Below, one piece after another: positions 815 to 17,176 of a stretch of 64,000 bases of DNA (the stretch's first letter is position 1; every line of letters begins with the position of its first letter). The stretch covers positions 248,001 to 312,000 of the forward strand of contig NZ_JAVIFV010000001.1 of NCBI RefSeq assembly GCF_031157375.1, read 5' to 3'. The notes beneath the pieces were generated by a model. That model saw only the letters and a list, made by a program, of their open reading frames with translations. It was not told the DNA's origin and ran no database searches. The position numbers and the translations under genes are program-made. Source of the stretch: Sphingosinicella sp. LHD-64. Lineage in GTDB: Bacteria > Pseudomonadota > Alphaproteobacteria > Sphingomonadales > Sphingomonadaceae.

Positions 815-1573
815 TTAGGCTTCAGCCAGCGCCGCTTCGGCCGGCGGCTCGTCCTGCGCGCCGAGATCGACGCCGCGGGCGGCCGCGCCGCCCTGCTTGC
901 CGGCGAGCACCGCATCGGCGATCGCGTCGCAATAGAGACGAACGGCGCGGCTGGCATCGTCATTGCCCGGCACCGGGAAGGCGATGCCGTTCGGGCTCAC
1001 ATTGGTGTCGAGCACCGCGACGACCGGAATGCCGAGCACGTTCGCTTCCTTGATCGCCAGCTCTTCCTTGTTGGCGTCGATCACGAACATCACGTCCGGG
1101 ATGCCGCCCATGTCGCGGATGCCGCCAAGGCTGAGCTCGAGCTTGTCGCGCTCGCGGGTGAGCTGGAGCACTTCCTTCTTGGTGAGGCCGTGCGTGTCGC
1201 CGGCGAGCTGCTCCTCGAGGCTCTTGAAGCGCTTGATCGAGTTGGAGATCGTCTTCCAGTTGGTGAGCATGCCGCCCAGCCAGCGATGGTTGACGAAATG
1301 CTGGCCCGAGCGGCGCGCGGCCTCGGCGATCGGATCCTGCGCCTGGCGCTTGGTGCCGACGAACAGCACCTTGCCGCCCGACGCGGCGGTCGAGCGCACG
1401 AAGTCGAGCGCACGCGCGAACAGCGGCACGGTCTGCGACAGGTCGATGATGTGCACCCCGTTGCGCTCGCCGAAGATGTACGGCTTCATCTTGGGGTTCC
1501 AGCGATGGGTCTGGTGGCCGAAATGCGCCCCGGCCTCGAGCAATGCCTGCATGGTGACGTCGGTGGACGCCAT
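815..1573 (-). CDS. rpsB: 30S ribosomal protein S2
   Basis: Ribosomal protein S2, needed with S1 to complete the small ribosomal subunit. The 252-residue product starts [20 protein letters not shown] and has the family's [20 protein letters not shown] block. The ATG at 1573 is chosen over an upstream in-frame start because AAGGAGAAACATC lies directly before it. Family length is about 240-260 residues, so this start fits. The Asp/Glu/Ala-rich C-terminal tail is of the kind alphaproteobacterial S2 proteins often carry. It is the first gene of the rpsB-tsf unit. Confidence 0.98.
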
Positions 1574-1712: not shown

Positions 1713-1741
1713 TTGACTGTAGAACAAAAAGAGAACATAGG
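1713..1741 (+). promoter_or_regulatory. LexA-box promoter facing the small ORF at 1815
   Basis: The box GAACAAAAAGAGAAC occupies 1722-1736, i.e. GTTC-N7-GTTC on the other strand, the direct-repeat LexA operator of alphaproteobacteria; the recA gene in this window has the same arrangement at 17162-17176. A TTGACT hexamer (1713-1718) stands just before it on the plus strand, with a weak -10 (CATAGG, from 1736) at about 17 bases, so the operator fills the promoter spacer. Bound LexA should block plus-strand transcription. The rpsB promoter in the other direction does not overlap it. Confidence 0.75.
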
Positions 1742-1814
1742 CATGTCAGGCAGCGATCGAGGAACCCTTGGCCGTCGCCTGGATTCAGCTGTGGATGGTT
1801 GAGAGGATAAAGCT

Positions 1815-2003
1815 GTGGCTCACCTGTTGACGATCGCGTTCTTTCTGACCCTGCTGGTGGCGCTGGGCATGGTTCTCGAGTTCATTCTGAAGGAGAGCTG
1901 GGCGGAGATCTGCGCCGCCTTAAGGGGCGCGCCGGCGGCTCCGGCAAGGGCAGCTCGGCCTCGTTCGACCGTTGCGCGACCGCCCCGGCACGCTGCCGCC
2001 TGA
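1815..2003 (+). CDS. Small single-helix membrane protein, predicted SOS-regulated
   Basis: A 62-codon ORF with a GTG start preceded by GAGAGGATAAAGCT. Residues 2-25 form a strongly hydrophobic helix (LLTIAFFLTLLVALGMVLEF), followed by a short acidic/amphipathic segment (KESWAEICAALRG) and a basic Pro/Ala/Arg tail. Its 3' third overlaps the end of pssA on the opposite strand. No family is recognised. A LexA-type promoter lies about 75 bases upstream. Small SOS-induced inner-membrane proteins that stop cell division are known in alphaproteobacteria (SidA of Caulobacter); a similar role here is inference from size, topology and regulation, not homology. The tail may be an extension of low constraint. 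Confidence 0.6.
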   Translation: MAHLLTIAFFLTLLVALGMVLEFILKESWAEICAALRGAPAAPARAARPRSTVARPPRHAAA

Positions 2004-2739
2004 CCTTCGCATAACTCGCGATGCTGAACGGAATGAGGGCGAGATAGACGAGCGCGACGACGCTCAGGGTCTGCCAGGGCGCGGAGAAGAGCGCGCCGCC
2101 GACCAGCGCGATGACAAGGATCGCTTCCAGCCGGATGTTGCGGCGGAGACGCAGCGAGGTCCAGGAAAAGGTCGCGAGGTTGGAGATCGCCAGGAAGGCA
2201 ATGAAGCCGGCCCAGATCGCGACCAGCCAGAAATTGCGCAGCCACTCCCATTCCTGGCCACTGGCCAGCCAGAGATAGATCGGCAGCAGGAGCAGCCCCG
2301 CCCCGGCCGGCGCCGGCACGCCCGTGAGGAAACCGGCTGACTTGTGCGGCTGGTCCTCGACGTCGATGCGGGCATTGAAGCGGGCGAGCCGGAGCGCCAT
2401 GCAGACGGCATAGGCAAGCGCGAACACCCAGCCGATACCACGCTGCTCCTGCAGCACCCAGAGATGGAGCACGATCGCCGGCGAAACACCGAAAGCGATA
2501 ACGTCGGAAAGCGAATCCAGCTCGGCCCCGAACCGGCTCTGCCCCTTCAGCGCACGGGCAATGCGGCCGTCCATGCCGTCCAGCACCGCCGCGGCGATGA
2601 TCGCATAGATCGCCCGGTCCCACTCGCCGGCAATGGCGAAGCGGACGCTGGTGAGGCCGACGCAAAGCGCCAGCGCAGTGATCGCATTGGGAACGACCGC
2701 GCGCAGCGGGATTCCCCGGCGCTCCGGCACCCCGGTCAT
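1882..2739 (-). CDS. pssA: CDP-diacylglycerol-serine O-phosphatidyltransferase
   Basis: Phosphatidylserine synthase of the CDP-alcohol phosphatidyltransferase family, an integral membrane enzyme making phosphatidylserine from CDP-diacylglycerol and serine. The family motif DG-x2-AR-x8-G-x3-D-x3-D is complete at residues 57-79 (DGRIARALKGQSRF followed by GAELDSLSD). The 285-residue chain has six to eight hydrophobic segments and ends in a basic, Pro-rich tail that overlaps the small plus-strand ORF. It starts 10 bases after the psd stop, so psd and pssA form one unit carrying out consecutive steps to phosphatidylethanolamine. Confidence 0.95.
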   Translation of the reverse strand: MTGVPERRGIPLRAVVPNAITALALCVGLTSVRFAIAGEWDRAIYAIIAAAVLDGMDGRIARALKGQSRFGAELDSLSDVIAFGVSPAIVLHLWVLQEQRGIGWVFALAYAVCMALRLARFNARIDVEDQPHKSAGFLTGVPAPAGAGLLLLPIYLWLASGQEWEWLRNFWLVAIWAGFIAFLAISNLATFSWTSLRLRRNIRLEAILVIALVGGALFSAPWQTLSVVALVYLALIPFSIASYAKVRRQRAGAVAQRSNEAELPLPEPPARPLRRRRSPPSSPSE

Positions 2740-16016: not shown

Positions 16017-17087
16017 TCAGATATCGTCCTCGGCATCGGGGCCGGTCATCAGCGCCTCGCCGACCTCGTCGGTGCGGCCGCGGATCGCCTTTTCGATACG
16101 ATCGGCAATTTCCGGATTTTCGCGCAGATAGACCTTGGCATTCTCGCGGCCCTGGCCGATGCGGATCGAATCGTAACTGAACCAGGCGCCGGACTTCTCG
16201 ACCAGGCCGGCCTTCACGCCGAGATCGAGCACCTCGCCGAGCTTGGAGACGCCCTCGCCGTACATGATGTCGAACTCGACCTGCTTGAACGGCGGCGCGA
16301 GCTTGTTCTTGACCACCTTCACCCGGGTCGCGTTGCCGACGATGTCGTCGCGGTCCTTGATCTGGCCGGTGCGGCGGATGTCGAGCCGGACCGAGGCGTA
16401 GAATTTCAGCGCATTGCCGCCGGTCGTCGTCTCGGGATTGCCGTACATGACGCCGATCTTCATGCGCAGCTGGTTGATGAAGATCACCAGGCACTTCGAC
16501 TTGGAGATCGAGCCGGTCAGCTTCCTCAGCGACTGCGACATGAGCCGTGCCTGCAGGCCGACATGGCTGTCGCCCATCTCGCCCTCGATCTCGGCGCGCG
16601 GCACCAGGGCGGCGACCGAATCGACGATCAGGATGTCGACCGCGTTGGAGCGGACCAGCGTGTCGGTGATCTCCAGCGCCTGCTCGCCCGTGTCCGGCTG
16701 CGAGACGATGAGATTGTCGATGTCGACCCCGAGCTTCTTGGCATAGATCGGATCGAGCGCATGCTCGGCATCGACGAAGGCGGCGACGCCGCCATTCTTC
16801 TGCGCCTCGGCGACCGCATGCAGCGCTAAAGTGGTCTTGCCCGAGCTTTCCGGCCCGTAGATCTCGACGACGCGGCCGCGCGGCAGGCCGCCGATGCCGA
16901 GCGCGATGTCGAGCCCGAGGCTGCCGGTGGAGATGGTCTCGATCTCGATCGCCTCGCGCGAGCCGAGGCGCATCGCGCTCCCCTTGCCGAAGGCGCGGTC
17001 GATCTGCGCCAGCGCGGCGTCGAGAGCTTTCTGCTTGTCCATATCCATCTGGGTCCTGTCGGAAACGACTTGAAGCGATGCCACCAT
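16017..17087 (-). CDS. recA: Recombinase RecA
   Basis: The central homologous recombination protein, which also acts as co-protease for LexA self-cleavage in the SOS response. The Walker A motif is GPESSGKT (residues 78-85), the Walker B region is [13 protein letters not shown], and the L2 region holds [17 protein letters not shown]. Length is 356 residues with an acidic C-terminus (GPDAEDDI). The ATG at 17087 follows GGGGAGACCGGCC. A LexA operator of the alphaproteobacterial kind lies 75-89 bases upstream, so the gene should be SOS-inducible. Confidence 0.99.
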
Positions 17088-17161: not shown

Positions 17162-17176
17162 GAACAAGAGGAGAAC
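17162..17176 (-). promoter_or_regulatory. LexA (SOS) box of recA
   Basis: On the minus strand the site reads GTTCTCCTCTTGTTC, a perfect GTTC-N7-GTTC direct repeat, the known alphaproteobacterial LexA operator. It lies upstream of recA, where autoregulated SOS control is expected, and serves as an internal reference for the second box at 1722-1736. A possible -10 (TACGAC) lies about 17 bases after the second half-site. Confidence 0.88.

Follow-up and report, generated by a model that had tools for sequence, protein, structure and literature searches.

The question raised by this locus is what LexA, the repressor of the SOS response, controls in the gap between rpsB and pssA of Sphingosinicella sp. 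LHD-64, a member of the Sphingomonadaceae. In the window analyzed, a stretch of 64,000 nucleotides (nt) of this genome (NZ_JAVIFV010000001.1, positions 248,001 to 312,000), a perfect LexA operator (GAAC-N7-GAAC, GAACAAAAAGAGAAC; 1722..1736, plus strand) is followed by an open reading frame (ORF) of 62 codons with a GTG start (1815..2003, plus strand), which encodes a small membrane protein of 62 amino acids. Among named proteins, those most similar to the PssA of the window include proteins of Sphingosinicella, Allosphingosinicella, and Sphingomonas, which places the window in the Sphingomonadaceae. Comparison of the sequence with its relatives makes LexA control of a real protein close to certain. 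What the protein does is less firmly settled, and the reading favored here, to which we assign a probability of about 0.55 by analogy with SidA of Caulobacter crescentus, is that it would be a short-lived inner-membrane protein serving the Sphingomonadaceae as their division brake during DNA damage.

Conservation of the operator and its reading frame

The first-pass annotation of this DNA had named the lack of joint conservation in related genomes as what would refute its reading, and the comparison did not do so: in the Sphingomonadaceae, conservation extends to the box and the ORF jointly. To sample the family independently of the ORF, pssA was sought in 114 genomes and located in 111, and 80 of its 3′ junctions were examined. 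The other 31 comprise the window's own genome, 16 loci already hit by the ORF (all with the box), 13 genomes whose genus was already represented, and a single weak match, and since the ORF hits were left out, the sample leans against the ORF. In the 700 nt that take in the pssA end and the sequence adjoining it, a GAAC-N7-GAAC box facing the ORF is present in 73 of the 80 junctions, and behind it an ORF of 45-130 amino acids, with a hydrophobic segment near its start and beginning 20-220 nt after the first box, was found in 71 of the 73 (the exceptions are L198 and L205). The same 80 junctions contain the box in the opposite orientation only once, reversed motifs four times and once, and motifs with other spacings 7, 6, 2, and 2 times, while a comparable transmembrane ORF occurred in 26 of 1460 shuffles and on the antisense strand in 19 of 73 cases, where its start position was unrestricted. 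Four of the seven junctions without a perfect box carry a box with one mismatch, each behind TTGAC (L139, L141, L146, and L157); L202 ends at a contig end, L135 comes from a genome with the gene elsewhere (L332), and L177 is the remaining one.

Two further sets of loci agree with this sample. Among 80 named loci from Sphingopyxis, Erythrobacter, Sphingobium, and others, of which 79 were usable, the box was found in 78 and the transmembrane ORF in 77. A protein search of 60 genomes of the window's genus, its own included, gave 30 loci, in 16 of which the ORF adjoins pssA, with the box upstream in all 16 and rpsB also visible in 14. The other 14 have neither pssA, rpsB, nor box and were set aside, and weak hidden Markov model matches (L098-L100), likewise without all three, were rejected. 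No box was found in 20 outgroup junctions, drawn from seven further families of the same order (L325 covering only 275 nt), and the A2 profile had no match outside the Sphingomonadaceae in 240 genomes of the class at an E-value of 0.001, a profile that also misses members within the family. Searches with profiles A1 and A2 matched 82 of 397 family genomes and 94 of 296 order genomes, some of the weak matches being false, and these counts understate the spread of the gene as divergence within the family is rapid and only a few candidates were scored in each genome.

The operator also has a recurrent place in a promoter. It had been proposed to lie in the spacer of a promoter that starts with TTGACT (1713..1718, plus strand, the −35 element), and this geometry holds well beyond the window, as a TTGACA-like hexamer (at least five of six positions) precedes the start of the box by 9-12 nt in 79 of 88 loci (the 71 junctions together with 17 loci of the same genus). 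The recurrent spacing places the operator between the −35 and −10 elements of a promoter reading toward the ORF. The box has the same form as that of recA, as had been claimed, and recA (16017..17087, minus strand) is the reference SOS gene of the window, with its box at 17162..17176 (minus strand), 74 nt upstream. This is the operator type of the SOS regulon, and GTTC-N7-GTTC operators are also reported in Caulobacter (PMC12700426). The motif has 85 matches in the window's own genome versus 29 for its reversed form, two boxes lie just upstream of lexA, and uvrA, imuA, and a RecQ helicase were recognized by eye behind others. A radical-SAM protein and an S24-type repressor-like protein, also recognized by eye behind LexA-like boxes (L295 and L306), are possible further SOS genes. 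In Sphingopyxis granuli, lexA, recA, and imuAB are reported to be induced under anoxia (PMC6472365).

The promoter of the divergent neighbor rpsB (815..1573, minus strand) had already been described as separate. At 20 of the 80 junctions rpsB is not visible in the stretch of about 1.5 kb examined, yet the box is retained in 16 of them, which speaks against rpsB as the target; control of rpsB by the box was rejected. Several lineages have additional LexA-like sequences. Three GAAC-N7-GAAC boxes precede the gene in the Erythrobacter-type loci L189 (spacings 33 and 25 nt), L248, L251, L256, and L279, and GGAAC, a possible extra LexA half-site, occurs 43 times after the main box in the leaders of the 71 junctions (L130-L209) versus 7.3 times in shuffles.

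The association of box and ORF survives even where pssA is not adjacent. In two genera, g108 (three genomes) and g89 (six genomes), profile matches without pssA within 2 kb (L332-L340) all encode the transmembrane ORF, and all nine have a GAAC-N7-GAAC box 33-192 nt upstream. Eight of the nine proteins end in Ala-Ala and one in Val-Ala, and six of the nine lack a minus-strand frame of 100 codons across the 3′ end of the gene. At three of the six g89 loci (L337, L339, and L340) rpsB is still 0.6-0.8 kb upstream, so that pssA is the neighbor no longer adjacent there. The pssA junctions of two of these nine genomes were among those examined, and one (L135) has neither box nor ORF while the other (L198) has a box and no transmembrane ORF. 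In L198, from a genome that has its copy of the gene elsewhere (L335), the LexA-like box near the pssA end is not accompanied by a membrane ORF.

Translation, topology, and the C-terminus

That the ORF is translated is shown by purifying selection and by a forced codon choice in the overlapping pssA. In the 40 Sphingopyxis-type ORFs, which for the most part share only 17 nt with pssA, the ratio of nonsynonymous to synonymous differences (pN/pS) is 0.255 over codons 2-42, with pN below pS in all 780 pairs, versus 0.683 in the tail and 1.57 and 3.07 in the shifted frames. In the window, pssA (phosphatidylserine synthase; 1882..2739, minus strand) runs tail to tail into the ORF with an overlap of 122 nt at its 3′ end, and the ORF is antisense to the 3′ end of pssA over 17-173 nt in 66 of 67 placeable junctions; L172 and L226 have no overlap. 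The PssA codon opposite the ORF stop was classified in 65 of 75 placed junctions, where it specifies Arg in 33, Lys in 31, and Gln in one, and the Arg codon is AGG in 32 of the 33, although among the 79 Arg codons of four window genes only 5 are AGG. This bias implies that pssA pays, in its choice of codons, for keeping the stop of the ORF, and it makes a clear example of how conservation of one gene can limit the codons used by another that overlaps it. Upstream, a Shine-Dalgarno-like sequence (GAGAGGAT; 1801..1808, plus strand) lies 6 nt from the start codon, and AGGGGAT/AGGGGAA-type Shine-Dalgarno sites are found at the matching place in many leaders of the same genus.

The single transmembrane helix predicted by the first-pass annotation is borne out by structure prediction. 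The ORF has one strongly hydrophobic segment (residues 4-25, limits set by eye; 1824..1889, plus strand), and AlphaFold2, applied to 43 sequences, gave a single helix over residues 2-36, with a mean predicted local distance difference test score of 94-98 over the first 30 residues, followed by a disordered tail. The 76 distinct ORFs of the family encode 60-100 amino acids (median 75). None of these 76 proteins has Lys or Arg among its first eight residues, while after residue 40 they contain on average 7.1 Lys and Arg versus 1.1 Asp and Glu. According to the positive-inside rule, the basic flank of a membrane helix stays on the cytoplasmic side, and from its composition the basic tail is likely cytoplasmic, with the short N-terminus outside. 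The family matched nothing in Pfam (58 members searched) or NCBIfam, nor in PHROGs, which were searched with 16 members of A1 only, and no description of the gene was found in the literature searched, which covered few subscription papers.

The tail of the window protein, rich in Arg, Pro, and Ala (1923..2000, plus strand), ends in Ala-Ala-Ala, and a C-terminal Ala-Ala is found in 63 of the 71 junction ORFs and 65 of the 77 named ORFs. The ending was first suspected to be a mere by-product of the conserved PssA block on the other strand, as 55 of the 61 junction ORFs that end opposite this block have it (67 of 71 were placeable). This explanation is disfavored by the outgroups and by copies ending off the block. 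An antisense Ala-Ala-stop was present in none of the 10 placeable outgroup PssA genes. Where the ORF ends outside the block, Ala-Ala is kept in four of six junctions, in five of 10 named loci, and in all five of L051, L058, L063, L067, and L070, three of which are from one genus; L172 and L226, without overlap, end in Leu-Ala-Ala and Val-Ala-Ala. Since no outgroup has the antisense Ala-Ala-stop and many copies ending elsewhere keep Ala-Ala, selection acting on the protein explains the ending better, and at the canonical loci the constraints from the PssA block and from the protein are inseparable. The ssrA tag is recognized by ClpXP, and the Ala-Ala shared by the window protein, most junction ORFs, and eight of the nine pssA-free copies is plausibly an ssrA-like degron.

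DnaA boxes in the leader

The leader, defined as the sequence from the last LexA box to the start codon, has a second kind of site in many genera, which the first-pass annotation had overlooked, as it had the overlap of the ORF with pssA and the recurrent C-terminal Ala-Ala. We take TTATCCACA to be the DnaA box. The leaders of the 71 junctions, 4.8 kb in total, contain 14 exact copies versus one in the surrounding 105.7 kb, and 37 versus three when one mismatch is allowed. An exact box is present in 13 of the 71 leaders, versus 0.045 expected from shuffling, and one within a single mismatch in 32. A core motif relaxed to [TC]CCACA, TCAACA, or TCCACC, a choice made with examples already in view, occurs in pairs separated by exactly 11 nt in 27 cases and by 10, 12, and 22 nt in one, three, and five, and this recurrence suggests a phased DnaA array. 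DnaA-box-like sites, often spaced by 11 nt, can be seen in leaders of L145-L204 (e.g., L161, L166, and L168). Leaders of the window's genus have the site in reversed orientation, exact in 10 of 17, while the window itself has a degenerate form (TGTGGATGG; 1790..1798, plus strand) with two mismatches to the reverse of TTATCCACA. Its own genome of 3.9 Mb has eight exact sites versus 19 for the reversed control.

Among the 77 named leaders (about half Sphingopyxis), only 11 have a DnaA box within one mismatch. Given their absence from many leaders, the boxes would be a lineage-dependent second layer of control. In Sphingopyxis-type leaders (e.g., L254, L257, and L260-L264) no DnaA box was seen and an inverted repeat, GAAACC...GGTTTCG, recurs, with GAAACCGT in 24 and GGTTTCGC in 27 of 40. 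Half-sites for CtrA are too few in the leaders to judge (TTAACC three and GGTTAA three, versus 1.0 and 1.3 in shuffles), and GANTC is not enriched in them (18 versus 19.5).

Proposed role, rival explanations, and known systems

A role like that of SidA is favored because the parts of the locus match those of the SOS-induced small membrane proteins that inhibit division, including the single transmembrane helix of that functional class. After DNA damage, RecA-triggered cleavage of LexA would likely free the promoter. Where the leader has a DnaA array, as in many genera, bound DnaA may also limit transcription, in the simplest case by obstructing it past the promoter, which would plausibly tie expression to the state of replication. 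The protein would then likely insert as one helix with its N-terminus out and its basic tail cytoplasmic. As SidA and YneA suggest by analogy, the helix may bind a septal component, probably the FtsW/FtsI/FtsN complex, and delay septation until ClpXP, plausibly through the C-terminal Ala-Ala, removes the protein and division resumes. A wider version of this proposal, in which a checkpoint ancestral to the family uses LexA and, in many genera, an 11-nt-phased DnaA array to control a ClpXP-degradable inhibitor and so gates septation by both damage and the state of the initiator, is more tentative; judged from the sequence patterns, it is possible but on balance doubtful.

Some observations within the window count against the operator itself, a question that conservation decides in its favor. 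The window holds two GTTC-N7-GTTC-type matches versus 1.21 expected, and at least two were present in 36 of 100 shuffles. The −10 element at 17-nt spacing is CATAGG (1736-1741), a poor match, and a consensus promoter scan over 1550-1900 reported no promoter. Other observations weigh against the proposed division brake and its control. No DnaA box, even at one mismatch, is present in 39 of the 71 leaders and 66 of the 77 named leaders, and in the window the site is degenerate. The C-terminal Ala-Ala mostly overlaps the conserved pssA block, with exceptions, and the off-block cases include close relatives that are not independent. In addition, an SOS-induced peptide with one helix could equally be a membrane-active toxin.

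The rival that fares best is an SOS membrane protein with a different task, in which the Arg-rich, predicted cytoplasmic tail would serve as a membrane tether for DNA or a repair protein or, as the lasting neighborhood of pssA might suggest, the protein would tune PssA, or else the envelope, during damage. Conservation of the tail is weak, however, the 3′ overlap can account for the linkage to pssA, and in two genera the gene is not adjacent to pssA, which leaves this an unlikely alternative, if one to be taken seriously. A somewhat smaller chance is given to a peptide of the TisB/DinQ type, which would depolarize the membrane and slow metabolism, leading to persistence. TisB, of 29 amino acids, and DinQ are SOS-induced hydrophobic peptides that are shorter than the proteins found here, lack a basic tail, and are controlled by antisense RNA. 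The small size, the single helix, the LexA box, and the better conservation of the helix-bearing N-terminal part are what such a peptide would have, but 76 distinct proteins of 60-100 amino acids with a basic tail and frequent C-terminal Ala-Ala are unlike TisB, and near-universal presence in the sampled genera of the family suggests a checkpoint more than a toxin. An RNA product, that is, a LexA-driven transcript acting antisense on pssA or relevant to rpsB with the ORF being incidental, would fit the antisense position of the ORF at most loci, but this reading was rejected as very improbable given the in-frame purifying selection, the ORF stop retained at the expense of pssA codon choice, the lack of overlap in L172 and L226, the nine copies without pssA in the 2 kb examined, and the box kept at 16 of the 20 junctions without rpsB. 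Finally, chance placement of a LexA-like motif beside a spurious ORF, with which the unremarkable motif count of the window agrees, is refuted by conservation in the genus, the 80 junctions, and the named loci and by the control motifs, and its probability is negligible.

If the division brake is real, it would provide an entire family of ecological importance with a candidate SOS membrane effector that has no match in Pfam, NCBIfam, or PHROGs. In the literature found, arrest of division during damage in alphaproteobacteria lacking SulA is known from Caulobacter. The gene is amenable to deletion in culturable strains of Sphingopyxis, Sphingobium, and Erythrobacter, and the arrangement of LexA and DnaA sites would offer a direct test of whether the damage response, replication initiation, and septation are coupled.

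Among known systems, SulA of Escherichia coli resembles the proposed protein as an SOS division inhibitor that is short-lived through proteolysis. SulA is soluble and acts on FtsZ, in contrast to a membrane protein, and the ORF had no Pfam match to SulA (PF03846), of which no match was found in 31 genomes either. The uvrB, recN, and dinJ genes of E. coli are reported to be repressed by both LexA and DnaA (PMC6015884) and are similar in that respect, but they have other functions and another arrangement of sites, while here the 11-nt-spaced sites follow the LexA box and precede the start codon. Elsewhere, SOS induction of small membrane inhibitors is described as a common solution (PMC13396833, PMC4211646). 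YneA of Bacillus, ChiZ of Mycobacterium, and SosA of Staphylococcus are likewise described as SOS-induced proteins with one transmembrane segment that block late division, and a contact of YneA with transmembrane segment 7 of FtsW is reported as supported, while similar contacts of ChiZ, SosA, and SidA come only from low-confidence models (PMC13396833). YneA and ChiZ differ in their LysM domain, which lies outside the cell, whereas the tail here is predicted to be cytoplasmic and disordered, with no LysM match in the 58 members searched against Pfam and with a ClpXP-like end; YneA, moreover, is described as degraded by membrane-bound proteases. DidA of C. crescentus is also a small membrane inhibitor acting after DNA damage, but it is reported to be SOS-independent and controlled by DriD (PMC4211646), unlike the gene described here with its LexA operator. 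The model for the proposed role is SidA, a LexA-controlled small inner-membrane protein of an alphaproteobacterium whose inhibition of division has been demonstrated and which, at 29 amino acids, is reported to act via FtsW (PMC4211646). The proteins found here belong to another order, are longer (60-100 amino acids), and have a basic tail and frequent C-terminal Ala-Ala. They would most likely work in a SidA-like way but form a separate family. What is new in them is the DnaA boxes in the leaders of many genera and a C-terminal Ala-Ala that is often kept even away from pssA.
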